A stretch of 36,272 bases of DNA from a virus: positions 1 to 36,272 of IMG/VR virus record IMGVR_UViG_3300021959_000162. One strand, written 5' to 3'. Positions 8,203-34,261 of the stretch are shown here, in pieces (the first letter of the stretch is position 1; each line of letters opens with the position of its first letter). The notes beneath the pieces are model-generated. The model made no database searches. It saw nothing but the letters and a program-made list of their open reading frames with translations, and was not told where the DNA came from. Position numbers and translations under genes: made by a program.

Positions 8203-9370
8203 AATAAAAGGTTGTATACTACCTTGGATACATTTATTCGGTAGTATAAGTGGAAACTTTTATCTTTGTTGTCATGCTGAGTATACACCCATAACTACTA
8301 TAGTTGGTACGCATAACGAATCTTTAGGTGACATTTGGAATGGTGATGCCTACAAAAAAGCACGACTTGATTTTATAAAAAATAAGATACCTCCAGAATG
8401 TATATCTGCTTGTTATAAAAAAGAAAAACAAGGTAGTGATAGTAACAGATTAAAAGCTAATCAACGATTTAATAAATTAGCTCCATTACAATATAAAACA
8501 AATAAAGATGGTAGTTTAGATTCTAATCCTACTTATTTAGATATTAGATTTGGAAACTTATGCAATTTTAAATGTAGAATGTGTGGGCCAGGAGCTTCTA
8601 CAAGTTGGTATGCAGATACTACTTCGTCTGGGTGGTCTAAAACAATTGATCATTATAGCAATAATGATAATTTTTGGGTAGATGTGCCTAAATTTATTCC
8701 TGAGCTACAAGATGTATATTTTGCTGGAGGAGAGCCTTTTGTGCAGCAAGGTCACTATAAAATGCTTGAACTTATTATAGATTCTGGTTATGCAGCAAAT
8801 GTAAATCTTAGTTATAACACTAATCTTAGTTATTCTAAGTTTAAAAAATATGATTTAAAAACTCTCTGGTCTAATTTTAAAAAAGTATCTGTATGGCCAA
8901 GTGTAGAAGGATATGGTAAACGTGCTGAATATGCAAGAAAAGGTTTATCATGGTCTAAGTTTGAGGAGCATACTAAACTTTTTAAAGATAATATAACTAC
9001 TGTAAGTTCTGTTATAAATATTTATAGTATTAGTTCTATGCCTGATCTTATTCTATGGTGTAAACGTAATAACATTCATTTCTATGGAACTACTCAGTCT
9101 GAGCCGCCACATCAAAAAATTACTTGTTTACCTAAAGAATCTAAACAACAAATGATTTCTATGTATAAAAAATTTGTTAATGAATACTCTTCTATACTGA
9201 CTTTTGAAGATTTACAACAAATTAAACATTGGCTATCTTATATGACCAGTAGCGATGACAGTAATTTATTGCACGATTTTAAAATAGAAACAGAAAGACT
9301 TGATTCTCTACGTAGAGAATCTTTTACTGATACTTTTCCGGAATTTGCTACATGGTACAAGACTTTATAG
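8159..9370 (+). CDS. Twitch-domain radical SAM protein inserted in the tail cassette
   Basis: The radical SAM cysteine motif C-x3-C-x2-C is present as CNFKCRMC (Cys135, 139, 142), followed by a SAM-binding GGEP at about 190-193. Before it are four further cysteines or pairs (C19, C37/C38, C81, C85) in the layout of a twitch-type auxiliary Fe-S domain, here at the N-terminus. The reaction and substrate are unknown. It lies between the L-like gene and the NlpC/P60 genes, where lambda has nothing comparable. The start is uncertain. TTG at 8159 is the most upstream option and overlaps the L-like gene by 44 nt. There is no ATG between it and Cys19, and a GGAGG at 8161-8165 might instead serve a non-AUG start slightly downstream. 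A perfect 20-bp palindrome lies near its 3' end. Confidence 0.85.
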   Translation: MEVSLQQDVPFQNNKIKGCILPWIHLFGSISGNFYLCCHAEYTPITTIVGTHNESLGDIWNGDAYKKARLDFIKNKIPPECISACYKKEKQGSDSNRLKANQRFNKLAPLQYKTNKDGSLDSNPTYLDIRFGNLCNFKCRMCGPGASTSWYADTTSSGWSKTIDHYSNNDNFWVDVPKFIPELQDVYFAGGEPFVQQGHYKMLELIIDSGYAANVNLSYNTNLSYSKFKKYDLKTLWSNFKKVSVWPSVEGYGKRAEYARKGLSWSKFEEHTKLFKDNITTVSSVINIYSISSMPDLILWCKRNNIHFYGTTQSEPPHQKITCLPKESKQQMISMYKKFVNEYSSILTFEDLQQIKHWLSYMTSSDDSNLLHDFKIETERLDSLRRESFTDTFPEFATWYKTL

Positions 9371-19108: not shown

Positions 19109-20860
19109 ATGGCGCTAACACGCATAACATCAACAGTTTTAGGGTCAAATGCGGTTACTACCGATAAAATGGCTAATGGATCTTTAACAGCACGCTTATA
19201 CGGAATAGCATCTATTCCTGCAAGTGCTTTAGATGCTACGGCCAGTGCAACAAGTTTAGTTGCAAATATAAATACAGTATCTGCTAATGTAACAGCCCTT
19301 GAAGCAAGACGAAATGCTAATCAAGCAGGTGCTGTATCTACTATAACTACTGCAGACCTTACTGCTGATAGAGCATTAATTAGTACTGGAGGCAAGGTAG
19401 CAGTAAGTGCTGTTAGTACTACTGTTTTAGAATATTTAGGTGGTACAACAGGTACTATACAAACTCAATTTGATTCAGTAAGCTCAAATGGTGCTGATAT
19501 TGTAGCAAACGTTACTTCTGTTGAAGCTAGAAGAGTAGCTAATATTGCTGGAGCAATATCTACAGTAGTTACTTCTGATTTAACAGCTTCAAGAGCTCTT
19601 GTATCTGATGGTAGTGGTAAAATAGCTGCATTAGCTTCTGTTACATCTACTGAATTAGGATATGTAGATGCTACCTCATCTATACAAACCCAACTTACTG
19701 CTGGTGTTACTAATACTAACTCTGTTAAAGCAAATGTAGATGCAGCCGAAGCTAATATAGCAGGTATAATAGCAGGTACTAAAAACTTTACTGGTCAAGT
19801 TACTATGGGTGATGACTTAGTAATTCAAGGTAATTTAGTTGTAAATGGTGATACTACTACTTCTAATACTATTAATGCCGTTATACAAGACAGATTTCTT
19901 ATGCTTGCTAACTCTGTTACCGGCACACCTAGTGCTGATGTAGGTATCTTTATGAATAGAGGAACTTCTGGTAATGCAGCTATTTATTATGATGAGTCTA
20001 CTAAATCATTTACCTTATCAGAAACCAGAGATCCTGATAGTAATGTTGTTATTAGTCCTACAGGTGCAGCTAATCTTATTACGGGTCAAATCACTGCTAC
20101 TTCTGTAAAATATAATGGCGCAGATTTGAATACAGCTATCACAGACAATCGTTCTGGTGCCGTATCTACTGTATATAAAGATGATCTTACTGCTTCCAGA
20201 GCTATAGTATCTGATGGAAGCGGTAAAATTGCTGTCTCAGACGTTACTTCAACAGAACTTGGTTATTTAGATGGCGTATCTTCCAGTGTCCAGACACAGC
20301 TTACTGCAGGAGTGACAGAGACTACAGCCCTTGAAGCAAGACGTGTGGCGAATATAGCAGGCGCAGTATCTACTATTACTACAGGTAACTTAACAGCTTC
20401 AAGAGCTCTTGTATCTGATGCCAGTGGTAAAGTAGCTGCATTAGCCTCAGTTACTTCTACTGAACTTGGATATTTAGATGCTACCAGTTCTATTCAGACA
20501 CAATTAGATTCTAAAGGAGGTACTGCAGATTTTCAATCTAATGACTTTATAACTTATACTCAGTTAAATGCTAATATTAATGTAGTATCTGGTAATGTTG
20601 CATTAGGTCTTAAACAACTTATAAACGTTTCGCCAAGCGCTGATGGTGAGGGTGCAGGTAATAATAATTTCTTTGTAGCTACTCCTGCTGGAGGTAATCC
20701 TACAGCTATTGATAATGTAACAGTTACTATAAACGGTGTTACACAAATTAAAACAAATGATTACTTATATGATAAGAACACAGGTAAGGTAACCTTTAAA
20801 GAGGCGTCTATACCGTCAGGTCTGACTGTTCAGATTGTAAGTCTTAATCCGCCAACCTAA
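19109..20860 (+). CDS. Repeat-containing tail fibre / structural protein
   Basis: This 583-residue Ala/Ser/Thr-rich protein has four copies of a roughly 47-residue repeat, at about residues 75-121, 149-196, 350-398 and 419-466. The core is 'LTASRALVSDGSGKIA' followed by 'SVTSTELGYLDATSSIQTQL'. Between copies 2 and 3 is a distinct domain (about 222-340: 'GTKNFTGQVTMGDDLVIQGNLVVNGDTTT', then 'IFMNRGTSGNAAIYYDESTKSFTLS'), a beta fold seen in many marine phage fibres. The C-terminal 80 residues form a short beta domain ('NVTVTINGVTQIKTNDYLYDKNTGKVTF'). AAGGAG precedes the ATG. The stop overlaps the start of the second radical SAM gene (TAATG). Confidence 0.8.
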   Translation: MALTRITSTVLGSNAVTTDKMANGSLTARLYGIASIPASALDATASATSLVANINTVSANVTALEARRNANQAGAVSTITTADLTADRALISTGGKVAVSAVSTTVLEYLGGTTGTIQTQFDSVSSNGADIVANVTSVEARRVANIAGAISTVVTSDLTASRALVSDGSGKIAALASVTSTELGYVDATSSIQTQLTAGVTNTNSVKANVDAAEANIAGIIAGTKNFTGQVTMGDDLVIQGNLVVNGDTTTSNTINAVIQDRFLMLANSVTGTPSADVGIFMNRGTSGNAAIYYDESTKSFTLSETRDPDSNVVISPTGAANLITGQITATSVKYNGADLNTAITDNRSGAVSTVYKDDLTASRAIVSDGSGKIAVSDVTSTELGYLDGVSSSVQTQLTAGVTETTALEARRVANIAGAVSTITTGNLTASRALVSDASGKVAALASVTSTELGYLDATSSIQTQLDSKGGTADFQSNDFITYTQLNANINVVSGNVALGLKQLINVSPSADGEGAGNNNFFVATPAGGNPTAIDNVTVTINGVTQIKTNDYLYDKNTGKVTFKEASIPSGLTVQIVSLNPPT

Positions 20861-21861
20861 TGAAAAAGTATAGACAACTTACAACAGAATTAACTTTTAG
20901 ATGTAATGCCAAGTGTCCTGCTTGTCATAGAGTTAAACCTCTTCGTATTAATTTAAATGATAAAAAATATACTATAACATTAGATAAATTTAAACAACTA
21001 TTTTACCCAGAATTACTTAAAAATTTAGAATGGTTAGTTATTAATGGTAATTTTGGTGACTCTGTAATGAATAAACAGTTTCGTGAAATTATATCATATG
21101 TTAAAGAGCATGATACTCGTATATTAATTCATACTAATGGCGGTATTCATGGACATGATTACTGGACAGATGTAGGAAATATATTAACAAATCGTGATAT
21201 TATTAATTTTGATATGGATGGTTTAGCAGATACACATTCTAAATATAGGATTAATACTAAATTTGAAGATGTATTTAGTAATGCTTGTTCAGTGATTAAA
21301 GCAAATACTGCACAAGTGCATTGGAAGTATATAGTATTTGAGCACAATAAACACCAAGTAGAAGAAGCTCGACAAATGGCTTTAGATTATAACTTTCATA
21401 CCTTTTCTACTGTTAAAACTTCAAGAGATGTATTTGCGCCTAAGAGTGGTAAATTTATACATTCTAAAAAGAATAAAGAAAATATGGATAAAGCTGAACG
21501 AGTTATTAAATGTGTGTGGGATAACTGGGGTAAGTGGTATGTGTCTCCAGAGGGATTAGTATTTAGATGTTGTTGGACAGGGGGGCATTATTATGATGAA
21601 AATCAATCTCGTTTTTACTATCCTCCTAAATTTGAAAATTTATTTAATGGATTACACGTTCCTTTGGAAAAGATTCTAAGTTATGATTATTGGACTAAGT
21701 TACAGAATTATTTAAAAGGGTATGATAGATCATTTAGCTTATGTAAGTCTCAGTGCGGTAAAATTGTATCATCAATAGAAAAAACAGAAGAAAATCTTAC
21801 TACAGGCAAGAAAGTTTTATTTGATTCACATAGTCAAAATGCCCAAGTAAGAGAAGCCTAA
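20860..21861 (+). CDS. Radical SAM protein with C-terminal SPASM-like cysteines
   Basis: CNAKCPAC (Cys15, 19, 22) is the radical SAM C-x3-C-x2-C motif, very near the N-terminus. The glycine-rich strand reads NGNFGD (62-67) in place of GGEP. At the C-terminus Cys218, Cys237/238 ('GLVFRCCWTGG'), Cys295 and Cys299 ('SLCKSQCG') resemble a SPASM/twitch auxiliary Fe-S domain, as in enzymes that modify peptides or proteins. The 333-residue length fits. It starts within the fibre stop (TAATG) with no clear ribosome-binding site, so translation is probably coupled to the fibre gene. The substrate is unknown. It differs in architecture from the first radical SAM protein in this window, whose auxiliary domain is N-terminal. 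Confidence 0.85.
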   Translation: MKKYRQLTTELTFRCNAKCPACHRVKPLRINLNDKKYTITLDKFKQLFYPELLKNLEWLVINGNFGDSVMNKQFREIISYVKEHDTRILIHTNGGIHGHDYWTDVGNILTNRDIINFDMDGLADTHSKYRINTKFEDVFSNACSVIKANTAQVHWKYIVFEHNKHQVEEARQMALDYNFHTFSTVKTSRDVFAPKSGKFIHSKKNKENMDKAERVIKCVWDNWGKWYVSPEGLVFRCCWTGGHYYDENQSRFYYPPKFENLFNGLHVPLEKILSYDYWTKLQNYLKGYDRSFSLCKSQCGKIVSSIEKTEENLTTGKKVLFDSHSQNAQVREA

Positions 21862-23713: not shown

Positions 23714-23807
23714 AGTTTTTCAAAGGTCTAAGGTAAAATACACTAAACCAAAAAAACGTAAGAGTGTTAAGTCTAAAAAGAAAAAAATTAATCGGCGTAA
23801 AAAATAA
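23697..23807 (+). CDS. 36-residue Lys/Arg-rich protein at the convergent junction
   Basis: ATG at 23697 lies inside the end of the 70-residue gene. It opens a frame of 36 codons, of which about half encode Lys or Arg ('KPKKRKSVKSKKKK', ending 'NRRKK'), with stop TAA at 23805-23807. It overlaps the stop of the leftward gene by 20 nt. An A-rich sequence gives many Lys codons by chance, so this could be spurious. The coupled start, and a similar 64-residue basic protein 1.2 kb upstream, argue for a real gene. It may bind nucleic acid or be packaged with DNA. Confidence 0.45.
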   Translation: MPIVPEVFQRSKVKYTKPKKRKSVKSKKKKINRRKK

Positions 23808-24531
23808 CTCCGTGATGTTTACTAACTTTTATACTTTGCACTAAAGCTCTTAACCAAGTTTTTTCATAAGGCGCACATATAAACATGTGCGCCTTACACG
23901 TTTCCATGATCTTACTCATCATATTTTTATTATCTACATCACAAGATATAAATACTAAATCATCTTCTAATAAATAGCTATAATCATAATCATAACCGTC
24001 ACAAGTTACTATATGTATATGGTCTTTTGCAGGAGACTTAGTGACTATTTCTCTTCCTACTGAAGCTCTTTTTTCATCTATTTCTATACCTACTTGTTGT
24101 ATATGTTTATACTTTTTCTGTATATCAAACATAGAATATGGATACATTCCTGAGCCTACTAATACTAAGTTTTTACATGTTTTAAATAATGAGGTTCTTT
24201 TTTTATCTAATAAAGTTTTATATATCCAAGCATTTGTTTCTGCTCTACGATATGCTAATAAGGCTCTATGCTTACTTACACTACTTGGATTTGCCCATCC
24301 AGTCATTACAGTATTAATTGTTTCTTCATCTGTATTATAAGTTTTATCTCTAAATATAAAACTTGTGTTACCTGATGCAATAGCTTGTTTTCTAGCTATT
24401 AGAAAATTAGCTATTTTTCTCTCTAACTCTTTTTTAGCGTCTTCTGTTAGTAGTCTGAGGTTAACCATTTCACTCTTAGCTACCAAGTCTTTCCAAGCAA
24501 TTTCTTGTTTTTTTATATCTTCAAAATTCAT
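23788..24531 (-). CDS. Nicotianamine-synthase-like SAM-binding protein
   Basis: This 247-residue protein has a helical N-terminal domain and a Rossmann-type SAM-binding core. 'NLVLVGSGMYPYSM' matches the Gly-rich loop of nicotianamine synthases (VGSGPLPLT type), 'QVGIEIDEKRASVGREIV' the acidic end of strand 2, and 'IVTCDGYDYDY' then 'DLVFISCDVDNKNMMSKIM' the later strands. That family joins aminocarboxypropyl groups from SAM into metal-binding amino acids; an ordinary methyltransferase is the alternative. I chose ATG 24531, which overlaps the upstream stop by 11 nt. An upstream ATG at 24582 would add 17 residues inside the glycosyltransferase gene. It is the last gene of the leftward block and overlaps a convergent small gene. 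A strong hairpin lies inside its 3' end. Confidence 0.6.
   Translation of the reverse strand: MNFEDIKKQEIAWKDLVAKSEMVNLRLLTEDAKKELERKIANFLIARKQAIASGNTSFIFRDKTYNTDEETINTVMTGWANPSSVSKHRALLAYRRAETNAWIYKTLLDKKRTSLFKTCKNLVLVGSGMYPYSMFDIQKKYKHIQQVGIEIDEKRASVGREIVTKSPAKDHIHIVTCDGYDYDYSYLLEDDLVFISCDVDNKNMMSKIMETCKAHMFICAPYEKTWLRALVQSIKVSKHHGVIFYAD
23867..23896. repeat. Perfect 12-bp inverted repeat near the convergent junction
   Basis: TAAGGCGCACAT (23867-23878), a 6-nt loop, then ATGTGCGCCTTA (23885-23896). The stem is much richer in GC than its surroundings. It lies inside the 3' end of the leftward nicotianamine-synthase-like gene, 60 nt beyond the last rightward stop. It lacks a clear U-run on either strand. 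It could still slow or end rightward transcription, or protect mRNA ends. Confidence 0.55.
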
Positions 24532-25642
24532 TATATATATCCGATAATATTTGGGCGCTATTAGATGTACCTTGTATATCATATTTAAAACGTTGTGGCT
24601 TATATCCGCCCACTACTTCATCTAATACTGTCTTAATAGTACCAAATTCAGGCATAGTAAGTACTTTATAGTAGTCATAAGGCTCAAACGTAAAAGCTCT
24701 TACAAATTGTTCCATTTTCCTTCCACTCTGTCTTGGTACCACTATAGAGGGTATCTGACTTTTTAGTATTTCTACTGTTGCATTATATCCCCCATAAGTT
24801 ACATACCCAGCACAATCTATTAACTTATTACGTAGTTCTGGTACATATTCTACAAGATATATATTTTTATTTTTTCTACCGCCAATAGAATTATATTTAT
24901 TAGCTATAGGCATAATAAATTTATGATTAGGATATAGATGTGCTATCTCTGCAATTTTTTTAAATATTATTACTGCTTCATCTTTGTTAAGACCAGTACT
25001 AATATAAATATTATTATTTTTTTGTTTATGTAAAGGTTGAGATTCATCACATACATAACCTGTATATTTAAGCATATGTTTAATATCATTTATAATTTGT
25101 ACAGAGTTAGACTGTCTAGTTCTATCACTAATAAGTGGTAGTATATCTTTATCCCCATGAACTAATATACAATCTGCATAATATTTACATACTATATTTT
25201 GAGTGTATAATACCCAATCTTGTAATTGGGTACTATGCGGCTCATCCCATGGGAAATCTCTAACAGATATAACAATTTTTATACCTCTTTTTTTACATTC
25301 TTCAAGGTATCTAAAGTATTCATGTGCAAATTGTTGTCTACAAAAAGGAAAACCTTCACATACTAATACTTTAACTTTATATTTTTCTATAGTTTTTATA
25401 AATTGATTGATACGAAAATTTATGATAGTAGCCTGTTGTATAAATTGAAATACTTTATTTATATCAGGTATTTTATAATTACCAAGAAAAGCTGTATGAG
25501 GTACTTTATACTCTAAAGGGGGTTGAAATAGCTGATCCATAATAATTACATCATGATATTCGGCTGTTTTCTCTGCTATAAATTTAATTCTTTGGGAGTG
25601 CCCTAATCCTCTATAATATTGAGTTAAAAATCCTACGGACAT
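24521..25642 (-). CDS. MurG/GT28-like glycosyltransferase
   Basis: This 373-residue protein has the layout of a GT-B glycosyltransferase. The N-terminal 'MSVGFLTQYYRGLGHSQRIK' holds a Gly-rich loop near residues 11-16. The C-terminal half has 'NNIYISTGLNKDEAVIIFKKI', 'NIYLVEYVPELRNKLIDCAGYVTYGGYNATVEIL' (about 265-295) and 'IPSIVVPR', then Glu-Gln ('MEQFVRA'). These are the sugar-nucleotide-binding elements of MurG and related enzymes. The acceptor and donor are unknown. The ATG overlaps the ThyX stop as TAATG. It belongs to the leftward run ending with the nicotianamine-synthase-like gene. Confidence 0.75.
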   Translation of the reverse strand: MSVGFLTQYYRGLGHSQRIKFIAEKTAEYHDVIIMDQLFQPPLEYKVPHTAFLGNYKIPDINKVFQFIQQATIINFRINQFIKTIEKYKVKVLVCEGFPFCRQQFAHEYFRYLEECKKRGIKIVISVRDFPWDEPHSTQLQDWVLYTQNIVCKYYADCILVHGDKDILPLISDRTRQSNSVQIINDIKHMLKYTGYVCDESQPLHKQKNNNIYISTGLNKDEAVIIFKKIAEIAHLYPNHKFIMPIANKYNSIGGRKNKNIYLVEYVPELRNKLIDCAGYVTYGGYNATVEILKSQIPSIVVPRQSGRKMEQFVRAFTFEPYDYYKVLTMPEFGTIKTVLDEVVGGYKPQRFKYDIQGTSNSAQILSDIYNEF

Positions 25643-26304
25643 TACAGATCCTTAGCTAAGGGAAATACCTCTGCTATAGCTTGTCCACATGCTTGTGCTA
25701 ATTCCATATGTTCTTTTTGTGTACCATTAGCACTTCTTAATTCAATATAATGAACCCAAGAGCGTAGAGTACCATTTACGTATAGTCTGGATAAAGTTAA
25801 ACCTTCTGGTAATACTTTTCTTGCCTGCTCTTTAGCAATACCATTTTCTATAGCCCAATCATATGCTCTTTCTACTTCTTGCATTACAGCACGCTGTTTT
25901 ACGTTCCACATATTTTGAAGTTCTTCATCATTAGTTTCGATTGAATTTTGACGATTCTTTGTATCTTGTAATCTAGCTTCTGATGTTTCAAAATAATCAG
26001 CGCCCATATCCGCAGGATCAGCGTATCGTTGTGAAAATTCTTGAAAAGAGAATGAGCGATGTCTCAAAAGCTGTCGTGCAATATCTCTTGTAGTTTCAAT
26101 TTCCATTGTAGCTGATACCATTTCAAGAGGAGACCAATGTTTATGTTTGATTAGATACTTAATTAATTTTTCGGTTGTTTCACTATTCATTTGATTTGTA
26201 GGATTTGATACTCTTGCGCAGTATGCTACAAAATCTTGCAAATTATCTATACCTATAAAGGTTCCAGGCATAACTTGTGTATACCCCATTAGTTTAGCTT
26301 TCAC
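25642..26304 (-). CDS. thyX: Flavin-dependent thymidylate synthase ThyX
   Basis: ThyX makes dTMP from dUMP using FAD and methylene-tetrahydrofolate. The diagnostic motif RHR-x2-S-x4-S-x-R is complete at residues 81-93 (RHRSFSFQEFSQR). It is preceded by 'HWSPLEMVSATMEIETTRDIARQLL' and followed by the C-terminal 'TLRSWVHYIELRSANGTQKEHMELAQACGQAIAEVFP', both family-typical. The 220-residue length is normal. It overlaps the dUTPase-like gene by 11 nt and the glycosyltransferase by one base. Next to an exonuclease, it would supply thymidine nucleotides for phage replication. Confidence 0.95.
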   Translation of the reverse strand: MKAKLMGYTQVMPGTFIGIDNLQDFVAYCARVSNPTNQMNSETTEKLIKYLIKHKHWSPLEMVSATMEIETTRDIARQLLRHRSFSFQEFSQRYADPADMGADYFETSEARLQDTKNRQNSIETNDEELQNMWNVKQRAVMQEVERAYDWAIENGIAKEQARKVLPEGLTLSRLYVNGTLRSWVHYIELRSANGTQKEHMELAQACGQAIAEVFPLAKDL

Positions 26305-26998
26305 TTGGTTTTACTCCTGTTGGTTCTTCAAGATCTTCTACTTGTTCTATTTTTCTTTTATGAGTGGCTGTTAACGTACCATCAATATCTATCTCATCTA
26401 CTAAGTAAGTACTTATACCTCCTTGAGTATATTGTTCTACTATAGCTCTTCCATATTCTACATCAGGTTCAAATTTTTTAATATCATGTACTTCTGGATT
26501 AAGTTTCTTTTTTAATTTTTGAATATAACTTTTAGCTGATGAATTTTTCCAAGCAATATCTTCTATCTGATCAACATAATTTATTACCATTCGAGGACGA
26601 TAGTTTACAGAAAAAGTTGCAATTTTTTGAGTAGGCTGTATAGTCTGTGCTTGTTCAAAATTATTTTTAATCAGTAACCATATTTCATTTCTAAACGTAT
26701 ATTCAAAAGTAGATACACCATCTGCCAATGACAATCCTTGCTCATATACTAAGTCAGTAAACGAATTAACTTCAATGCGAAAATTAGGATTTTTTAAAGC
26801 AGGGTATATTCCTGTAGGTATAGGTATAATCTTATTTGCAGGAATTTTTACAGGCTTAGTTATACATGCTCTAAGATGAAAGAAGGGATCAAGATTAGTA
26901 TCTTGATTGAATCCCCACTCACAGCTATATGTTTTTTCTAAATACTTAGCAGTAGAACTTTTCTCAATATCAATCTCACAGATTCGATAGTCGGTCAA
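26294..26998 (-). CDS. Divergent dUTPase-like protein
   Basis: The central region aligns with trimeric dUTPases: 'FHLRACITKPVKIP' for motif 1 ('DLRAC'), 'IPIPTGIYPAL', 'RIEVNSFTDLVYEQGLSLADGVSTFEYTFRNEIWLLI' for motifs 2-3, and 'TIQPTQKIATFSV' for motif 4. Key positions are changed. The motif-2 'RSS/RSG' reads 'NSF', and the motif-3 catalytic Asp in 'GTID' is Glu in 'STFE'. It may hydrolyse dUTP weakly or do another job. A C-terminal extension of about 80 residues is extra. I chose TTG 26998 because AAGGAG lies nine nucleotides upstream. ATG 27034 would overlap the exonuclease by 59 nt and has no ribosome-binding site. Confidence 0.65.
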   Translation of the reverse strand: MTDYRICEIDIEKSSTAKYLEKTYSCEWGFNQDTNLDPFFHLRACITKPVKIPANKIIPIPTGIYPALKNPNFRIEVNSFTDLVYEQGLSLADGVSTFEYTFRNEIWLLIKNNFEQAQTIQPTQKIATFSVNYRPRMVINYVDQIEDIAWKNSSAKSYIQKLKKKLNPEVHDIKKFEPDVEYGRAIVEQYTQGGISTYLVDEIDIDGTLTATHKRKIEQVEDLEEPTGVKPSES

Positions 26999-27815
26999 GA
27001 GCTTCTTCTCCTTCTTTACCGGCCATAATAGCATCGGTACAGTACTTTAGATTAATTAGATTTTCATTTCTAATTAGTCTTTCTTTACCCGCATTTAGAT
27101 TTTGTATATACTTAGCACGACCTTTTAATGGCAAAGCTGCCAATAGATTATCCAGAGTATGATACTCTTTAGCAAGTCCTTGTGCTCTCTTAGGTCCGAT
27201 ACCTTCAATACCTATAATGTTATCACCTTTATCTCCTTCAATAATTCTGGACATCATAAACTGTGCGGGTGTAAGTTCTAGATCTTCTTGTAGTGATTCA
27301 AGAGTAACTTCTTTGCGCCCAAATATATTGAATACCGATACATCTTCTTTGATTAGTTGTAATAAATCCTTATCTGATGACACAACCCAAGTATGGTTAT
27401 AGTTTTGTGATAGATTTTGAGTAATCCATGCAAGAGTATCATCAGCCTCTACTCCTCTAAACTTTACTACTTCTTCATCAATATCATCAGGAAGAGCATT
27501 AAGAACAGCAAAGAACTCTTCAAAACGTTTTACTTCATCTGGATCATCAGATTTTGTACGAGTGCCTTTATAGTCTTCAAGCATTTCCATTCGATAATAG
27601 CTCTTACCAAAGTCAAAACATACAATAGTACGTTTAGCTTGATAAGATTTTGCAAGTGATTGTATAGTACGAATAAAATCATCAGCAAAAGAATCATGAT
27701 TAGGTCTGCGAAGCCATCTGTATGATAGATTGTTTGCATCAACAATTAGTAGATTATTATAGTCAGAGTAGTCAGTTTCTTGCACATCTGCAAGATCATT
27801 CCATGATTTAGTCAT
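26976..27815 (-). CDS. 5'-3' exonuclease / FEN-like nuclease
   Basis: This is a 279-residue member of the T5 D15/T4 RNase H/Pol I exonuclease family. It has 'NLLIVDANNLSYR' with the first metal-binding Asp (about 26), 'IVCFDFGKSYYRMEMLEDYKGTR', and 'GVEADDTLAWI' and 'VVSSDKDLLQLI' with the acidic metal ligands. 'IEGDKGDNIIGIEGIGPKRAQGLA' is the helix-hairpin-helix of the family. It would remove RNA primers or degrade DNA 5' ends during phage replication. It is the first gene after a candidate promoter and has AGGAG six nucleotides before the ATG. Confidence 0.93.
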   Translation of the reverse strand: MTKSWNDLADVQETDYSDYNNLLIVDANNLSYRWLRRPNHDSFADDFIRTIQSLAKSYQAKRTIVCFDFGKSYYRMEMLEDYKGTRTKSDDPDEVKRFEEFFAVLNALPDDIDEEVVKFRGVEADDTLAWITQNLSQNYNHTWVVSSDKDLLQLIKEDVSVFNIFGRKEVTLESLQEDLELTPAQFMMSRIIEGDKGDNIIGIEGIGPKRAQGLAKEYHTLDNLLAALPLKGRAKYIQNLNAGKERLIRNENLINLKYCTDAIMAGKEGEEALDRLSNL

Positions 27816-27839
27816 ATTTATCTCCTGTGTTTATAAATA

Positions 27840-27868
27840 AATATAACAAATATAAAAGAAGTTAGCAA
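27840..27868 (-). promoter_or_regulatory. Candidate sigma70-type promoter for the exonuclease-thyX genes
   Basis: Read on the minus strand, TTGCTA (27863-27868) and TATATT (27840-27845) are separated by exactly 17 nt. They lie in the only clear gap of the central leftward block, 25 nt before the exonuclease start. This resembles the rightward candidate at 21872 (TTGCCA-17-TATTCT). Confidence 0.45.
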
Positions 27869-27884
27869 TAGCTATATCACTTCT
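27857..27884 (-). terminator. Candidate bulged hairpin terminator
   Basis: On the minus strand AGAAGT, a 4-nt bulge, TAGC, loop TATT, GCTA and ACTTCT fold into a stem of 6 plus 4 pairs, followed by TTTTAT. It overlaps the stop of the nuclease gene and the -35 of the promoter candidate. It may separate the upstream cluster from the exonuclease-thyX group. The bulge makes it weak. Confidence 0.35.
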
Positions 27885-28347
27885 CTTCCCTATACTTAGG
27901 TAACTTATCAGCTTTCTTTACTGCTTTAATCCACTCATCTAATCTAGATATTTTAAACTTGTGCCCAAAAGATGAAATCTCTACGTAGTCATCCACTTCT
28001 GTGTCATCATCATATGCTGCAAAATCTTTAGATCTGTCCCATCTAAATAGTAATAGAGGTTTCTTCTTCATTACTTCTGCTTCTCGTACTGCTTGTTCCC
28101 AAAACCCAAATATATTAGTAGTTTTAGAAGTTAATAGATTATTCCATTGAATCTCTTTATAATGTTTACACTCAATACAATAAGGCCACCATGCAGTATC
28201 ATGTGGTGTCCATATATCTCCTTTTAAATAATCTATTGCCCCAGATAATGGAACCCTTCTAAACTCTACATCAAATTCTTTACTTAATAGTGTAGCTATT
28301 TTTTGCTCATAAGCTGAACCTTTAGCCTTACTTTTATTATATGCCAT
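27877..28347 (-). CDS. PD-(D/E)XK nuclease, Holliday-junction-resolvase-like
   Basis: A 156-residue protein with the order of a PD-(D/E)XK nuclease: a helix with Glu14 ('GSAYEQKIATLL'), then 'FRRVPLSGAIDYLKGDIW' with Asp44, then 'WPYCIECKHYKE' with Glu59-x-Lys61. The 'R-x-P-x-SGA ... GD' spacing is common in archaeal-type Holliday junction resolvases and related phage nucleases. It could resolve branched DNA before packaging. It starts three nucleotides after the amidinotransferase stop. A candidate terminator lies at its 3' end. Confidence 0.75.
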   Translation of the reverse strand: MAYNKSKAKGSAYEQKIATLLSKEFDVEFRRVPLSGAIDYLKGDIWTPHDTAWWPYCIECKHYKEIQWNNLLTSKTTNIFGFWEQAVREAEVMKKKPLLLFRWDRSKDFAAYDDDTEVDDYVEISSFGHKFKISRLDEWIKAVKKADKLPKYREEK

Positions 28348-28350
28348 CTA

Positions 28351-29379
28351 CTATGAGGCTCTCTTTCTTTTTAGATCTAAAGTAACACAATGAAATCCGC
28401 CTGCTAAAAGTCTATCATGCCTTAGTTCTAAAGGTATAGTTTCGATACCTACAGCATTAAGTTTTTCATGAATTTCTATTTGTTTTTTATCTACAATAGC
28501 AAGATTTGGGTTTACACTAAGAAAATTCATACCAATCCATTCACTTGCTCCCCAAGGTAATCCAGCTGGTGCTGTTGTTTCTCCAACACATTCATTTATC
28601 CAAATCTTATCCCAAGATTTAAATAATTCAGGTTCATTATCTATATTTACTCTACTTGCGTTATATAATACTAAACCTTCTCTTACTGGTACAATAGTAC
28701 TATCTAAATGTGCATATGAATATAAACCTTCTACTATATGAACTTTATATTTACTGCCTAATATACGCTGTAACCATTCACCACCGAGTCTATTTCCTGT
28801 ATTAGATATTTGATATAATATATCATCGTTTACACGTACACAATTAGCTGCCTCAAATAAGATCTCTTCATTATTTAATGCAGGGACTCCGTTTGTATCT
28901 TCTTTGTAGTTTTTATCAAATAGTAAAGGTATAGGAGCCTTTAACCATGTACATCCTTCACGAAACATTTGTGTAAAAATATCTCTATATCCCCAGGTTT
29001 CAAATTGTCTATTCCATATAGGAGAAGGTGTCTCTATAATTTTATCATCTATAATAAGTGTAAGATCTCTGGGAGAGTAATAATGCCAGTTTTTACCCTT
29101 CCATGTAGGTGATTGCGTATTGGCTTCTGCATATTGTGTATTTGGTCTATGTACTTTTACACCTAAAGACTTTAATGTATTACTCAGTACTTCAAGATCT
29201 TCATTTTGTTCATCTATAATTTGTTGAGGATAAAATCCTGCTACGGATTTAATATACTCTTCTTCGAACTCTGGGTACTGACATTTTAACGTACTAATAT
29301 TAGGTATAGGTATATTACAATAATCAGCTGTACCTACTATAATTTCTTGTAGTTCATCCCAATCATTATTACAAGTCAT
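28351..29379 (-). CDS. Glycine/inosamine amidinotransferase-like protein
   Basis: Clear homolog of arginine:X amidinotransferases, which move the amidino group of arginine to an amine. It has 'NDWDELQEIIVGTAD' at the start, 'EILFEAANCVRV' with Glu176 where human AGAT has catalytic Asp254, 'YSYAHLDSTIVPV' with His224 (His303), and 'LAGGFHCVTLDLKR' with the nucleophile Cys331 (Cys407). 'WGASEWIGMNFLSVNP' and the Tyr/Leu/Gly-rich 'NRLGGEWLQRIL' are also conserved. The Asp-to-Glu change is conservative. The 342-residue length is usual for bacterial members such as StrB-type enzymes. It overlaps the aminotransferase-like gene by 11 nt, so an amine made by that enzyme could be its acceptor; this is inference. 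Confidence 0.9.
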   Translation of the reverse strand: MTCNNDWDELQEIIVGTADYCNIPIPNISTLKCQYPEFEEEYIKSVAGFYPQQIIDEQNEDLEVLSNTLKSLGVKVHRPNTQYAEANTQSPTWKGKNWHYYSPRDLTLIIDDKIIETPSPIWNRQFETWGYRDIFTQMFREGCTWLKAPIPLLFDKNYKEDTNGVPALNNEEILFEAANCVRVNDDILYQISNTGNRLGGEWLQRILGSKYKVHIVEGLYSYAHLDSTIVPVREGLVLYNASRVNIDNEPELFKSWDKIWINECVGETTAPAGLPWGASEWIGMNFLSVNPNLAIVDKKQIEIHEKLNAVGIETIPLELRHDRLLAGGFHCVTLDLKRKRAS

Positions 29380-30307
29380 ACTTCATTCTTCCATCCCATA
29401 TTCTTGAGAAACATAGCCTATTTCCATTACCGCCTCTGTTATATTCTCTAAAGCGTCCAGAATAGTCTATACCAAAATATACACAATAGGAAGGTACTAA
29501 ATCAAGTTTTTGACAAAATGCAAGTTGTTTACTATGGTATTTCTCAAATACATAATTAGCTGGAAATTTCTTCATCATAGCAGTACCAAGATATGCACTT
29601 AGTAAATTAATATAATTATAGTTATATTCATTTATTACATATATTTGATCTTCAAAAGGTTCTTTTTGTAAACGTATACCAACTCTATGATTCTCTATAG
29701 GAAATACTTTAGATAGGGATGACACTACATACTCTATACAAGGATGAGATAAATCAAATGACATGTCTACTCCTAGGTTAAGATACGCTAAATCTAACAT
29801 AACAGGAACTTTTAGTCTATCACAATCACACAATATTTTTTCAAGACTACTAGGCACTGCACCTGTATCAGCAAAAGGAACACTCAATAATACTACATCA
29901 CCTTCTTTAATAGGTTCATCATCTAACCAAGCAAAGTTATCGCTATACCATAATGATTTCATCATTTGATTATAGAAATACTCACCTTTTGCTATTCGTA
30001 GTCTATGATTATCTCTATATCTAATATAAAACTGTGCAAAAGATTCTGTGGTTCCTTGTGTAAAACACATATGAGTATAGTGTTCTACTCCATTAACTCT
30101 TGGAAAGCAGCTAAACATCCATTGTTTATATGTTTGTAAAAAGTCTTGTTTTATTATTTCTGCATTTTTCTCTGTATAGTTATTATTAACAGTAAACATT
30201 CTTATAGTTTCATCTCTATAAGATGTTAGCTCTCTATCATGCACACTGTATGCTCCACCAAAAGGTTTACTTTTATTATCTGGTAGATTTGTATATCTAA
30301 TTGCCAT
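29369..30307 (-). CDS. PLP-dependent aminotransferase-like protein (fold type I)
   Basis: A 312-residue protein with aminotransferase landmarks: 'CFTQGTTESF' (about 81-90) for the phosphate-binding turn, 'VPVMLDLAYLNLG' with Asp172 and Tyr175 for the pyridine ring, 'VSSLSKVFPIENHRVGIR' with Lys200 as the likely Schiff-base lysine, and 'GNGNRLCFSR' (Arg) near the C-terminus. It is shorter than typical class I/II enzymes (about 400), mostly through loss at the N-terminus and C-terminal small domain, so the substrate pocket may be unusual. It overlaps the oxygenase upstream by one base (TAATG) and the amidinotransferase downstream by 11 nt. The likely role is supply of an amino group for the cluster's product. 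Confidence 0.75.
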   Translation of the reverse strand: MAIRYTNLPDNKSKPFGGAYSVHDRELTSYRDETIRMFTVNNNYTEKNAEIIKQDFLQTYKQWMFSCFPRVNGVEHYTHMCFTQGTTESFAQFYIRYRDNHRLRIAKGEYFYNQMMKSLWYSDNFAWLDDEPIKEGDVVLLSVPFADTGAVPSSLEKILCDCDRLKVPVMLDLAYLNLGVDMSFDLSHPCIEYVVSSLSKVFPIENHRVGIRLQKEPFEDQIYVINEYNYNYINLLSAYLGTAMMKKFPANYVFEKYHSKQLAFCQKLDLVPSYCVYFGIDYSGRFREYNRGGNGNRLCFSRIWDGRMKYDL

Positions 30308-30825
30308 TATTTAAAAAATCCTGATAGTTGTAAGGTATATTTATCTTTCATACCACAATTGCCCGATAAATGAGGAACATGTTCATTAAATATCCATCCT
30401 GTGTTCTTTTCCCAATTCCATTTTATCTCGTCTCCAAACTGAAGTATATGCCCATCTTTCCAATCTTCTATAAAGATATTAGCTCTAACAGGTTCTCCAT
30501 CTGGTTTAATCTGTCTTAATTTATAGAATCTATCTATATGTAGAGGTATACAGTTTCCTGGTCTTTGTCTTATTACTGATATAGTATGTATATCTATATT
30601 TGTTTGTTGACTTAAAATTTCATAATCTATTTCTGACTTATCTAAAAACTTTTGATATATGATAGTATTTTCATCAGTATAACTTGAAGGCATACCTCCA
30701 TAAGGTTTATGCAGATCTTTTAATTGGTGAGTCATAATATCTTTTAAAGGATCTTTATAGTTAAACCATTCAATATTATATATAAAAGATAAATCATAGT
30801 CTATACTAGTTTCTTGTAATATCAT
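30307..30825 (-). CDS. 2OG-Fe(II) oxygenase-like protein
   Basis: This 172-residue protein has an iron-binding triad of the 2-oxoglutarate oxygenase fold: His96-x-Asp98 in 'CIPLHIDRF' and His152 in 'EHVPHLSGN'. Intervening beta strands read 'VRANIFIEDW' and 'GHILQFGDEIKWNW'. The basic residue that would hold 2-oxoglutarate seems to be Lys rather than Arg ('MKDKYTLQLSG'). Related proteins (aspartyl/asparaginyl hydroxylase-like) are common in marine phages. I chose ATG 30825 because it forms an ATGA overlap with the upstream stop. ATG 30843 would add six residues but has its AAAGG directly against the ATG. The target is unknown. Confidence 0.8.
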   Translation of the reverse strand: MILQETSIDYDLSFIYNIEWFNYKDPLKDIMTHQLKDLHKPYGGMPSSYTDENTIIYQKFLDKSEIDYEILSQQTNIDIHTISVIRQRPGNCIPLHIDRFYKLRQIKPDGEPVRANIFIEDWKDGHILQFGDEIKWNWEKNTGWIFNEHVPHLSGNCGMKDKYTLQLSGFFK

Positions 30826-31937
30826 GTTTCCCACGGCATCCATCCTTTCTGTTTATACCCAAAGTTTAAATATGTATTAATTTTTTGTTTCTCAGACTCA
30901 TTGCTTAAACAAAACTCTTCATTAGCAAACCACATAGTAATATTATTTGTTAAAGCTAAATTTATTAAATACTCTCTTCTAACTATTTCATCAGGTAAAG
31001 AATATATACTATGCATAACTATAACATCTACTTCTGATACTATTAGATCTTCTAATATAGGCATCCAGTGTAAATATTCATTTTCAACTTGCATCATATT
31101 GTTAGGTATATTATGCGTTTTACAAAAAGTGCGTAGTGCATCTCTCTGTAGATTAAGTGGTATATCTCTATCATATTCAGTATTATTACCTATATATCCT
31201 ACGCAAGTATCATTTGTGTGATCTATTACTCTATACTCTGTATCATTAGGTAATCTAAAAAACCCTCCAGGAAGTCTGCCACCAAATTCTTCTCCCTCTA
31301 CTAATACATGCCAATCTATAGCCATTCTGGTAATATTAGTTTCATTATTTACATTACCGTGTAATATTTCTTGATGAAATAGGTGTGCCTGACCTACCTC
31401 TAAATCTACTGGATAAGCAGTATCTAGACATGCATCTTCAAATGTTTTCTGATCCCACTCATTTATGATAAGCTGGGCAGTAATTCTTCTTGATTCTCTG
31501 GTTGATACTACATACATAGAGTTAGTATCATATGCTTTTGTTAATGGCATCCATATAGTACCTTGTCCTCTACCATTTTTATAAAATATACCTTGATGAA
31601 AGGGTAATTTTCTACCAAGTCTTTCTTGATTAGGTATTACTAAATTAAGGGTTGGGCGCCTCTTAATTAAATATCTTTTACCATCTAATAGGGGTGATAT
31701 ATAAGTTTCTGCAAAAGCATCAAACTCTTTAGAGTATTTATCAGAGCTTAGTCTACTTTGTACCATATCTGTTATATGTATAAGTTCTCTGGTTGGTACT
31801 TCGTTATGTATATTTTCAAGACTGGTTACATAAGGATATAGCTCTTGTATTATTTCCAACACCCATGTATCCCAAGGATAACAATCATGGTCATAGTTTA
31901 GCGTGTTATTATTAAAGTTTTTATATATGCTATTCAT
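30822..31937 (-). CDS. Fusion of 2OG-oxygenase-like and LIC12192-like 'sporadic carbohydrate cluster' domains
   Basis: This is a 371-residue protein of two parts. Residues 1-240 match phytanoyl-CoA-dioxygenase-type proteins of the 'sporadic carbohydrate cluster' 2OG-Fe(II) oxygenase family: 'RRPTLNLVIPNQERLG', 'WMPLTKAYDTNSMYVVS', and 'FHQEILHGNVNNETNITRMAIDWH' with His193 and Arg204. Residues about 246-360 match the companion family of unknown function (LIC12192-like): 'CVGYIG', 'IPLNLQRDALRTFCKTHNI', 'DVIVMHSIYSLP' and 'FANEEFCLSNESE'. These are usually separate adjacent genes in polysaccharide loci. Where a His-x-Asp is expected, the sequence reads His114-Gln-Gly116, so the iron carboxylate ligand may be missing. 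The family names come from memory and the exact family should be verified. Confidence 0.75.
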   Translation of the reverse strand: MNSIYKNFNNNTLNYDHDCYPWDTWVLEIIQELYPYVTSLENIHNEVPTRELIHITDMVQSRLSSDKYSKEFDAFAETYISPLLDGKRYLIKRRPTLNLVIPNQERLGRKLPFHQGIFYKNGRGQGTIWMPLTKAYDTNSMYVVSTRESRRITAQLIINEWDQKTFEDACLDTAYPVDLEVGQAHLFHQEILHGNVNNETNITRMAIDWHVLVEGEEFGGRLPGGFFRLPNDTEYRVIDHTNDTCVGYIGNNTEYDRDIPLNLQRDALRTFCKTHNIPNNMMQVENEYLHWMPILEDLIVSEVDVIVMHSIYSLPDEIVRREYLINLALTNNITMWFANEEFCLSNESEKQKINTYLNFGYKQKGWMPWET

Positions 31938-33162
31938 TTAGTTTATTCACCAATGTTTTTTGTAATTTATTTTTATTATCATAATATACTTTATAATTAT
32001 GTTCTAAAATATCATCTAATTCTATAATTATTTTTTCTAATTCTTCTATACTTTTATTGCATAGTTGTTTCATTTGCTCCATAACCATATAAAATCTTTT
32101 TGAAGAATCTGTACAGTCATCATAGGATTCATCTATTATAGGAGAAAATGTTTTATACCCTAATTCTCTTATAAATTTTAACTGACCTGCTTGACCTAAT
32201 ATTATAAAAGGTTTTTTGTAAATAAAATTTCTATATGTTTTTTCTGTAATATGAAGTACTGCTCCAGCTACATCACTATATATTCTTTTAACAGGCTTAT
32301 CATAAGAACCTTCAATAACAAAATTAAATAAAGATTTATGTAGTATTTCTTCTATGTCTAACATATCAAATACTTTATCCGTTGCTGTAAATTCTAATTC
32401 AGTAAATTCTTCATTTATTAACGCGGATACAGCCTTTAAATGCTTAGAAGTTAACAATGAAGTATCTAAAGTTTCTTTAAAGTCTTGTCCATAGTTTTTT
32501 AAAGATACAAAACCTTCATCAAGTAAATTAGTTTTTTCCAAAGTACAGGCAGTTAAACCCCTAATATATCTTTCGTGATAATTACTTAAAAAACAACAAA
32601 ATTTTCTTTTAGTTAACGTACTGGTATTATCATAAAAACTAAGATCTTTTTTATACTCTCTATTTTCAGATAATCCTATATCATGTTCTTCATCATATAT
32701 TGTTGCTTGAGGATTTACGTCTGTAGTATAAAAATGAGGATGATTTAATATATGCGGAGTTATAAATATAAAATTTTCTTGATCATCAGACATAACTCTA
32801 TTTCTAAGTATAAAACTTTCTATGTAAGTAACAGCTTCTAACTGCATTCCTTCTACTATAATAAATAATAATTTTCCTTGCTTATTATCTATGCCTTTTT
32901 TAACGAATTTAGGTAAGTGTGCATGTATTGGATGACCACTATTACCTTCACTAAAACTAGTCATAAAAAATTGATAAATTACAACAGGATAAAACCATTT
33001 ATAAGATACTTTGTCTGCATAATAAGATGGCACGTACTTTACTTTATAGTTTGAAAAAATAGATTCTATGAATAAGCAATGATTACTGACACCTAATAGA
33101 TTAGGACGTGGACCTTTAATTTTATCTATATCATCTATCATAAAATGTAAATTATTAGTCAT
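31930..33162 (-). CDS. Putative glycosyltransferase-like protein, copy A
   Basis: A 410-residue protein paralogous to the next gene upstream. Its C-terminal half contains 'ITEKTYRNFIYKKPFIILGQ' and 'LKFIRELGYKTFSPIIDESYD' (the last at about 328-348), plus a C-terminal helix. I associate this pattern with GT-B-like glycosyltransferases (fucosyltransferase-type C-terminal domain) in phages and large viruses. The middle has 'KRKFCCFLSNYHERYIRGL'. The N-terminus contains 'MIDDIDKIKGPRPNLLG'. The donor and acceptor are unknown. It is coupled to its neighbours by 8-nt overlaps on both sides. Glycosyltransferase is my best reading; I would not be surprised by another nucleotide-sugar-related function. 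Confidence 0.5.
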   Translation of the reverse strand: MTNNLHFMIDDIDKIKGPRPNLLGVSNHCLFIESIFSNYKVKYVPSYYADKVSYKWFYPVVIYQFFMTSFSEGNSGHPIHAHLPKFVKKGIDNKQGKLLFIIVEGMQLEAVTYIESFILRNRVMSDDQENFIFITPHILNHPHFYTTDVNPQATIYDEEHDIGLSENREYKKDLSFYDNTSTLTKRKFCCFLSNYHERYIRGLTACTLEKTNLLDEGFVSLKNYGQDFKETLDTSLLTSKHLKAVSALINEEFTELEFTATDKVFDMLDIEEILHKSLFNFVIEGSYDKPVKRIYSDVAGAVLHITEKTYRNFIYKKPFIILGQAGQLKFIRELGYKTFSPIIDESYDDCTDSSKRFYMVMEQMKQLCNKSIEELEKIIIELDDILEHNYKVYYDNKNKLQKTLVNKLNE

Positions 33163-34261
33163 CAGATAAATTATTTATCCTTGTATATAATTTTTGTTTA
33201 CTTTTTTTCTGATAATTTATATATAAATTATAGTTGTATTTACATATTTCAGTTAATTTATCCATATCGCTATTAAATTCTTCTATAGGTTTAGACATAA
33301 GTCTTTCTAACTCTTTACACAATACAACAAGTCTTCTCTTATTATCATGAATATAATCATAGCTTTCATCTATGATAGGAGAAAATGTCTTATAACCAAT
33401 ACTTCTTATATACTCAAGACTTTTGTATTGTCCTACGTATATAAAAGGTTTTTTAAATAAAAAAGATCTATAAATCTTTTCACTCATAAATGGTTCTGCT
33501 TTTCTATCCCAGTTACCTTCAGGTACTATATTAATAGACACTTTATTTAGTGTACTTTCAATATCTAAATTATTAAATAATTCTTTATTAGGATAGTCTC
33601 TTGCAGATATAAAACCTTTTGTTGTTATATTACTTTTTATAAAATACTCTAGTAATACTGTTCTTTCTAAACTTTCTTCATAGTTCATTAAAAAACAACA
33701 GAAACGTCTGTTATCAAAATTTTCTAATTTATTATACTTATCACCTTGTATATAGTTATTAGGACCCCACTCTTTCATAGTATCTTCTAATATATTAACG
33801 CACATAAAATTAGGAGAATCAATATAGTGTAAAGTAAGAAATAAAACATTTTTATATCTCGGATTATTTTCTACCATTCGTATAAGTACCTCTTTTTCAG
33901 TACTTCTGTAACCGCCCATAGGTTCTAATATTATAATTAATATAGTACCTCTACCTCTATCATATTGTTCTTTTACTTCTGGCGGTAATAATCCTATAAC
34001 GTCATAGTTTGTATCTCCCCAATCAAATAAAAAATTAATAAAAGTTAGATTATGTATTACAACTGGGTAAATCCAATTTCTTAGTTTTCTACAAACGTTA
34101 CCTTGTATAATACTACCAGAAGCATAATATTCAAGATCTACTTCATCCTTAAGAAATACTGCTCTCAGAGCATGGTCTGTATGATCTGTTTTAGTAATAT
34201 TTCCCAGTACACCTTCAATAGGATCTATATGATCTATTAATACTTTAATAGTTTCCGTCAT
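33155..34261 (-). CDS. Putative glycosyltransferase-like protein, copy B
   Basis: A 368-residue paralog of copy A, sharing order and several identical stretches: 'KIYRSFLFKKPFIYVGQ', the 14-residue 'GYKTFSPIIDESYD' at 289-302, and 'RRFCCFLMNYEESLERTVLL'. 'VLIDHIDPIEGVLGNIT' at the start parallels 'MIDDIDKIKGPRPN' in copy A. 'VPEGNWDRKAEPFMSEKIYRS' is the part that in fucosyltransferase-like enzymes binds the nucleotide sugar. The two genes probably arose by tandem duplication. It begins 17 nt inside the end of phoH. Confidence 0.5.
   Translation of the reverse strand: MTETIKVLIDHIDPIEGVLGNITKTDHTDHALRAVFLKDEVDLEYYASGSIIQGNVCRKLRNWIYPVVIHNLTFINFLFDWGDTNYDVIGLLPPEVKEQYDRGRGTILIIILEPMGGYRSTEKEVLIRMVENNPRYKNVLFLTLHYIDSPNFMCVNILEDTMKEWGPNNYIQGDKYNKLENFDNRRFCCFLMNYEESLERTVLLEYFIKSNITTKGFISARDYPNKELFNNLDIESTLNKVSINIVPEGNWDRKAEPFMSEKIYRSFLFKKPFIYVGQYKSLEYIRSIGYKTFSPIIDESYDYIHDNKRRLVVLCKELERLMSKPIEEFNSDMDKLTEICKYNYNLYINYQKKSKQKLYTRINNLSDD

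Follow-up and report, generated by a model that had tools for sequence, protein, structure and literature searches.

A four-gene phage module with a StrB/AGAT-type amidinotransferase and its possible guanidino product

The Campylobacter phages CP220 and CPt10 carry exchangeable modules in which an amidinotransferase is found together with radical S-adenosylmethionine (SAM) proteins (PMC2853527), and in the Synechococcus phage S-SCSM2R an amidinotransferase gene lies beside that of a small 2-oxoglutarate (2OG) oxygenase, among glycosyltransferase genes. We analysed the 36,272-base virus record IMGVR_UViG_3300021959_000162 of a tailed phage (the window, meaning this whole stretch of DNA), in which four adjoining minus-strand genes (28351-31937) encode a protein fusing a PhyH-type Fe/2OG part to a LIC12192/TIGR04323 domain, a small Fe/2OG-type oxygenase, a pyridoxal phosphate (PLP) aminotransferase-like protein and an amidinotransferase. 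Like the clusters of the Campylobacter and Synechococcus phages, this set is phage-carried and exchangeable and has its amidinotransferase near sugar-transferase-like genes; however, the amidinotransferases of those phages share only 22-39% identity with that of the window, and radical SAM or DegT proteins take the place of its aminotransferase and fused oxygenase. No description of the four-gene core with its fused protein, in which an HxG sequence replaces the usual HxD, was found in the literature searched.

We found that the four genes recur together in viral genomes. Scans anchored on the amidinotransferase, the aminotransferase and the fused protein gave 52, 80 and 80 viral loci, respectively, in overlapping sets, and co-occurrence was counted only for loci flanked on each side by at least 2.5 kb; the counted loci are not independent, since they include many close relatives and a few contigs turned up in more than one scan. 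Amidinotransferase-anchored loci contained the aminotransferase and the small oxygenase in 17 of 17 cases each and the fused protein in 14 of 17; aminotransferase-anchored loci contained the amidinotransferase (27/28), the small oxygenase (28/28) and the fused protein (21/28); and fused-protein-anchored loci contained the amidinotransferase (32/34), the aminotransferase (29/34) and the small oxygenase (28/34). A stronger argument than these raw counts is that the four-gene set was present in at least five flanking gene contexts and in several gene orders. The arrangement exceeds what chance would produce, given that tens of contigs carry the set, drawn from different metagenomes and spread over several phage backbones. 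In one group, amidinotransferase identity has fallen to 42-45%, against ~62% for the aminotransferase, and the linkage therefore outlasts divergence. A first-pass annotation of the window had described these genes as a functionally coupled set making a guanidino- or amino-modified sugar. The coupling is confirmed and extended: a check for genes occurring singly in relatives found them mostly together, Lys200 of the aminotransferase and Cys331 and His224 of the amidinotransferase, which it had named as key residues, are conserved in homologues, the catalytic residues are intact, and StrB is the closest of the solved structures to the amidinotransferase. The interpretation as a whole is partly supported, a sugar product that would decorate host surface, virion or DNA being a proposal. 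The cargo around the core in relatives includes a sulfotransferase, a DoxX-type membrane protein, and a UDP-sugar dehydrogenase with an epimerase (L033:4455-5081, L007:5182-5610, L049:4510-6119), and in 24 loci a conserved protein of ~228 residues, with SGNH/GDSL-like motifs and one weak Pfam match, directly follows the amidinotransferase (e.g., L066:7921-8616 and L034:10990-11676).

The gene at 28351-29379 (minus strand, 342 residues) is unambiguously predicted, by homology over its full length, to encode an amidinotransferase of the StrB/AGAT family. Its closest solved structure is StrB (1BWD; 277 bits, E 3e-81, residues 3-339), and the other solved matches are SxtG (174 bits), HsvA (167 bits) and human AGAT (~155 bits). 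StrB and the window protein share the Cys/His/Asp catalytic set: His224, Asp226 and Asp105 are present in 95 of 95 phage homologues and Cys331 in each of the 92 long enough to include this position. They differ in the acid of the triad, with Glu176 in the window branch at the position of StrB Asp179 (Glu in 69 phage amidinotransferases and Asp in 26), and no inositol pathway adjoins the window gene. In a phylogenetic tree that left out the distant copies of S-SCSM2R, the Campylobacter phages and contig L114, the phage amidinotransferases formed a single monophyletic clade with a support of 1.0. The window aminotransferase was absent from 30 amidinotransferase-bearing genomes searched, except G002, whose amidinotransferase contig is L114 (PAAV01000010.1); although titled as a Chloroflexi bacterium, this contig reads as phage and was kept out of the bacterial set for the residue counts and the tree. 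By eye, its neighbouring genes are SGNH-like, radical SAM-like, carbamoyltransferase-like, flavin halogenase-like, nitroreductase-like and adenylating. A StrB-type amidinotransferase gene followed by a gene of ~1,400 residues was observed as a recurring pair in bacterial loci L121, L124, L126, L129-L131, L134, L138, L140, L142 and L155; two of the ~1,400-residue genes were scanned, and AMP-binding/adenylation domains were found in both, along with a weak match to the Pls/PosA nonribosomal peptide synthetase (NRPS) model in one.

For the aminotransferase-like protein (29369-30307, minus strand, 312 residues), the match to Aminotran_1_2 (PF00155) had an E value of 6e-4 and, at 19.5 bits, was under the curated cut-off of 19.7, and that to NF006967 had an E value of 6e-5. 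Its AlphaFold2 model (predicted local distance difference test, pLDDT, 84) gave class I/II PLP enzymes as the top PDB matches, many of them equally good at E ~1e-8; its Foldseek neighbours were numerous and included the arginine enzymes MppP and Plu4. The Schiff-base lysine K200, the PLP aspartate D172, and R208 and R297, among which is the substrate arginine, are kept in 96 of 96 phage homologues. From these comparisons, the modelled fold is clearly that of a compact class I/II, fold type I PLP aminotransferase-like protein, but the reaction is not clear. StsC, in contrast, is an enzyme of the DegT/DnrJ/EryC1 type. The first-pass annotation had likened the two genes to StsC followed by StrB in the streptidine pathway, and the order of aminotransferase and then amidinotransferase is indeed the same; the analogy nevertheless fails for the aminotransferase, which matches only class I/II models and folds, and an StsC-type enzyme was rejected. 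No cassette gene matches DegT_DnrJ_EryC1 (PF01041), a family found in 4 of 24 relatives and never as a cassette gene, and inositol dehydrogenase or kinase families were not found among the cassette genes scanned, the phage genome being incomplete. Unlike the streptidine pathway, moreover, the window cassette has no dehydrogenase and possesses two Fe/2OG-type proteins instead.

The smaller of these two proteins (30307-30843, minus strand, 178 residues) had no curated family match in Pfam, NCBIfam or PHROG. Its H102-x-D104...H158 and R120 are invariant in 98 of 98 homologues, and a weak homologue, annotated as a 2OG-Fe(II) oxygenase, is the one adjoining the amidinotransferase of S-SCSM2R. The fused protein (30822-31937, minus strand, 371 residues) comprises a PhyH-type part (approximately residues 1-230) and a LIC12192/TIGR04323 domain (approximately residues 245-358). 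Both domains of the bacterial TIGR04324 and TIGR04323 "sporadic carbohydrate cluster" proteins are recognisable in it, although both matches are under the curated cut-offs (TIGR04324, E 3e-19, 69 bits against 150; TIGR04323, E 5e-8, 33 bits against 55), and it matched the Pfam PhyH model with an E value of 0.002. A profile of the fused protein alone gave no match to solved structures, whereas a profile including bacterial relatives reached human PhyH (2A1X, E 7e-6), with Gly116 aligned to the iron-binding Asp of HQD. The best Foldseek match of its model, a poor one (pLDDT 67), was the CurA halogenase. Thus, the earlier labelling of two oxygenase-type proteins, an aminotransferase and an amidinotransferase was borne out by family, profile and structure comparison.

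The bacterial and phage versions of this protein differ in two respects. In bacteria, a LIC12192-type gene directly follows the TIGR04324 gene in most of the loci examined, whereas in phages the two are fused. Furthermore, HxD was present in all 26 bacterial relatives alignable at the active site (28 of 385 alphaproteobacterial genomes had a TIGR04324 match above the cut-off, and the 26 came from the fetched loci), whereas the iron-ligand Asp was replaced by Gly in 63 of 63 phage fused proteins (57 with HQG and 6 with HTG). These 63 were drawn from the amidinotransferase- and aminotransferase-anchored scans; the fused-protein-anchored scan was excluded, since its search patterns contained FHQG. 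The window site reads H114-Q-G116...H193 with R204, all four residues being kept in 62 of 62 phage fused proteins, and HxG is also found in a phage branch only ~30% identical to the window protein. The phage fused protein thus departs from the HxD/E...H facial triad of Fe/2OG oxygenases and has the residue pattern of Fe/2OG halogenases, namely Gly or Ala for the carboxylate, a distal His and the 2OG Arg.

Fe/2OG halogenases such as CurA Hal, SyrB2, WelO5 and BesD have the same HxG/HxA two-His iron site, although they lack the fusion to LIC12192. In this class, halide can bind because Ala or Gly usually stands in place of the carboxylate (PMC8407142). On the residue pattern, the fused protein may be an Fe/2OG radical halogenase derived from an HxD polysaccharide-cluster oxygenase, a proposal that we regard as doubtful and that would imply a guanidino product which is halogenated or formed via a cryptic halogenated intermediate. 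HxG alone is no proof of halogenation, however, as AspH has an HxG site yet hydroxylates, and FIH with an Asp-to-Gly change retains some activity (PMC10947486); halogenation is therefore kept as an open prediction. For this one step, we put at about even the chance that HxG marks an AspH-like hydroxylase site or that the domain is non-catalytic and acts as a binding subunit. AspH and the altered FIH speak for this alternative, whereas the invariance of the distal His, the 2OG-binding Arg and the Gly across phage branches ~30% identical is hard to square with lost function, and the top fold match is a halogenase, though from a weak model. VirX1, a halogenase of cyanophage origin, is flavin-dependent and belongs to a protein class unrelated to the fused HxG protein. 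As a viral flavin-dependent halogenase, it nevertheless provides a precedent for halogenase genes in marine phages (PMC8407142). In two contigs (L235:5968-7089 and L236:4754-5875), the fused HxG gene stands alone beside membrane-type, transferase-like and epimerase-like genes, the other core genes being absent nearby; a base-exchange (TGT/DpdA-like) gene seen there by eye was dropped, as it had no Pfam, NCBIfam or PF01702 match.

We infer the following route from the four core genes. The two Fe/2OG-type enzymes would act on a C-H position of a scaffold, by oxidation or another functionalisation; the PLP enzyme would transaminate the resulting carbonyl to an amine; and the amidinotransferase would take the amidino group from arginine and place it on this amine, with release of ornithine. 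The variable proteins and the MurG-like glycosyltransferase described below may handle or attach the scaffold in a phage-specific manner during infection. That the four genes form one phage-borne pathway to a guanidino compound, the scaffold being most likely a sugar or a sugar-like glycan unit, is in our judgement an evenly balanced proposition. The sugar scaffold is strengthened because the bacterial TIGR04324/TIGR04323 pair sits in polysaccharide clusters: in the two bacterial loci checked, the pair was surrounded by genes for a sugar nucleotidyltransferase, nucleoside diphosphate (NDP)-sugar dehydratase/epimerases, a GHMP kinase, a carbamoyltransferase and ABC-2 transporters. In addition, some phage versions of the module add a sulfotransferase, a UDP-sugar dehydrogenase, an NDP-sugar epimerase or an SGNH-like protein, and the position of StrB as nearest solved relative of the amidinotransferase also speaks for a sugar.

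Several observations weigh against a sugar pathway of this kind. Amino acids, keto acids and small amino-alcohol phosphates are the usual substrates of class I/II aminotransferases, and most enzymes that aminate sugars are of the DegT type. Bacterial relatives of the amidinotransferase often precede a ~1,400-residue gene or lie within NRPS clusters; similarity to StrB is therefore not proof of a sugar product, and the sugar inference drawn from it is weakened. The set is also not strictly obligatory, in that four loci (L046, L240, L242 and L255) carry an amidinotransferase but no aminotransferase, the last three having only the fused protein and the amidinotransferase, and one, L092, has the aminotransferase with no amidinotransferase nearby. 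The variable proteins cannot be demonstrated to be glycosyltransferases, and the window and nearly all its relatives are fragments. The main rival, which we consider possible though distinctly the less probable, is that the product of the four enzymes is a free guanidino amino acid or a small secondary-metabolite-like compound, for which an amino acid would be hydroxylated or halogenated, transaminated and amidinated, and then released or joined to a peptide or lipid. The class I/II aminotransferase, with MppP and Plu4 among its many fold neighbours, and the NRPS/adenylation proteins beside bacterial amidinotransferases are consistent with this, as are the radical SAM, DegT, halogenase-like and adenylating genes of other large phage amidinotransferase clusters and the use of free amino acids by BesD-type HxG halogenases (PMC8407142). 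However, the window cassette has no adenylation or carrier-protein gene, and in bacteria the TIGR04324/TIGR04323 pair is a polysaccharide-cluster family. We therefore lean toward a sugar or glycan unit over a guanidino amino acid-type compound.

In the window, genes on the forward strand up to ~23.7 kb encode a tape measure protein, minor tail protein L, NlpC/P60, tail assembly and fibre proteins, and beyond that point all genes are on the minus strand. The latter are, in the order of transcription, MazG-like and glutaredoxin-like genes (labels from the letters of the window alone), PhoH, two paralogues (33155-34261 and 31930-33162), the fused oxygenase-LIC12192, small oxygenase, aminotransferase and amidinotransferase genes, and then a nuclease, a 5'-3' exonuclease, a dUTPase-like gene, ThyX, the MurG-like gene and a CntL-like gene. 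All the open reading frames of the first-pass annotation lie where it had placed them, on the minus strand. It had also reported overlaps of 1-17 nt, and overlaps are present, measuring 17 nt between the first paralogue and the PhoH gene and then 8, 8, 1 and 11 nt, although their exact lengths vary with the choice of start; for the oxygenase pair, the overlap is 22 nt if the longest start is taken and 4 nt from an internal ATG. The amidinotransferase gene, ending at 28351, is separated from the nuclease gene by a 3-nt gap.

This position among nucleotide and DNA genes (dUTPase-like, ThyX and exonuclease), together with the fact that phages modify DNA with amine-bearing groups, could suggest a hypermodified DNA base, or a precursor of one, as the product. 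We consider this quite improbable, as ThyX, dUTPase, PhoH and exonuclease are ordinary phage genes, other backbones place the four genes among different neighbours, and the PF01702 base-exchange enzyme was found in 0 of 24 relatives, a search in which all records were partial and which divergent enzymes would escape. Amidinotransferases release ornithine from arginine, and the module might instead reroute host arginine or amines, for example for ornithine and polyamine supply, without a dedicated product. Viral genes of the glycine amidinotransferase type have been read as auxiliary metabolism (PMC11360552). Such rerouting seems most improbable here, however, as it accounts neither for the conserved pair of Fe/2OG-type enzymes nor for the carbohydrate-cluster domain fused to one of them, and the best solved match is StrB, not AGAT.

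The two paralogues upstream of the core, variable accessory proteins a (33155-34261, minus strand, 368 residues) and b (31930-33162, minus strand, 410 residues), are 32% identical and matched nothing in Pfam, NCBIfam, PHROG or PDB profiles, including any glycosyltransferase family or structure. Their family is present in 50 loci, the aligned members being 16-42% identical to that of the window, and has the conserved motif TEKTxR..YKKPFI..GQ...L...R..GYKTFxPIIDESYD. In relatives whose aminotransferases are at least 95% identical to that of the window, the neighbouring members of this family range from ~30% to 100% identity and vary in number, and the stretch encoding a and b has the lowest G+C content of the window (0.26). 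This pattern suggests frequent exchange, as might be expected for parts fitting a product to a host or partner.

Three glycosyltransferase-like proteins had been proposed originally, a label that holds only for the MurG-like protein (24521-25642, minus strand), with a GT28/GT1-like C-terminal half, and not for the two paralogues. The MurG-like protein is predicted to be a GT-B enzyme from its matches to TIGR00661 (E 1.5e-4) and, by profile, to GT1 enzymes (8h5d, E 6e-11). The CntL/nicotianamine synthase-like, SAM-dependent protein (23788-24582, minus strand) matched NF033601 (CntL) with an E value of 1e-6 and CntL structures by profile with an E value of 3e-6, in the SAM-binding region only. 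These two genes had been counted as part of the unit, a view that was not upheld: they are co-resident genes confined to one phage lineage and outside the core, the MurG-like gene being present in all 10 PhoH-lineage records and in 0 of the 4 other backbones searched, and separated from the amidinotransferase gene by the nuclease, exonuclease, dUTPase-like and ThyX genes.

Elsewhere in the window, the nearest matches of the 5'-3' exonuclease (26976-27815), at ~40%, are flap endonucleases from T5-like phages; a short segment of the tape measure protein also matches T5-like tail proteins. Two tail-module proteins (8159-9370 and 20860-21861) match PHROGs named radical SAM; the former also has SPASM and radical SAM matches in Pfam, whereas the latter has no radical SAM domain by Pfam.

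The four-gene module adds to the known biosynthetic modules carried by phages and yields one sharp prediction about its chemistry. What makes this prediction clear and testable is that bacterial HxD has become HxG in phages and that two usually separate neighbours are fused, the fusion also tying the little-studied LIC12192 family to the oxygenase. The module is small enough for direct expression and testing, and the retention of a compact multi-enzyme pathway across unrelated phage backbones suggests that its product is useful to many marine phages.

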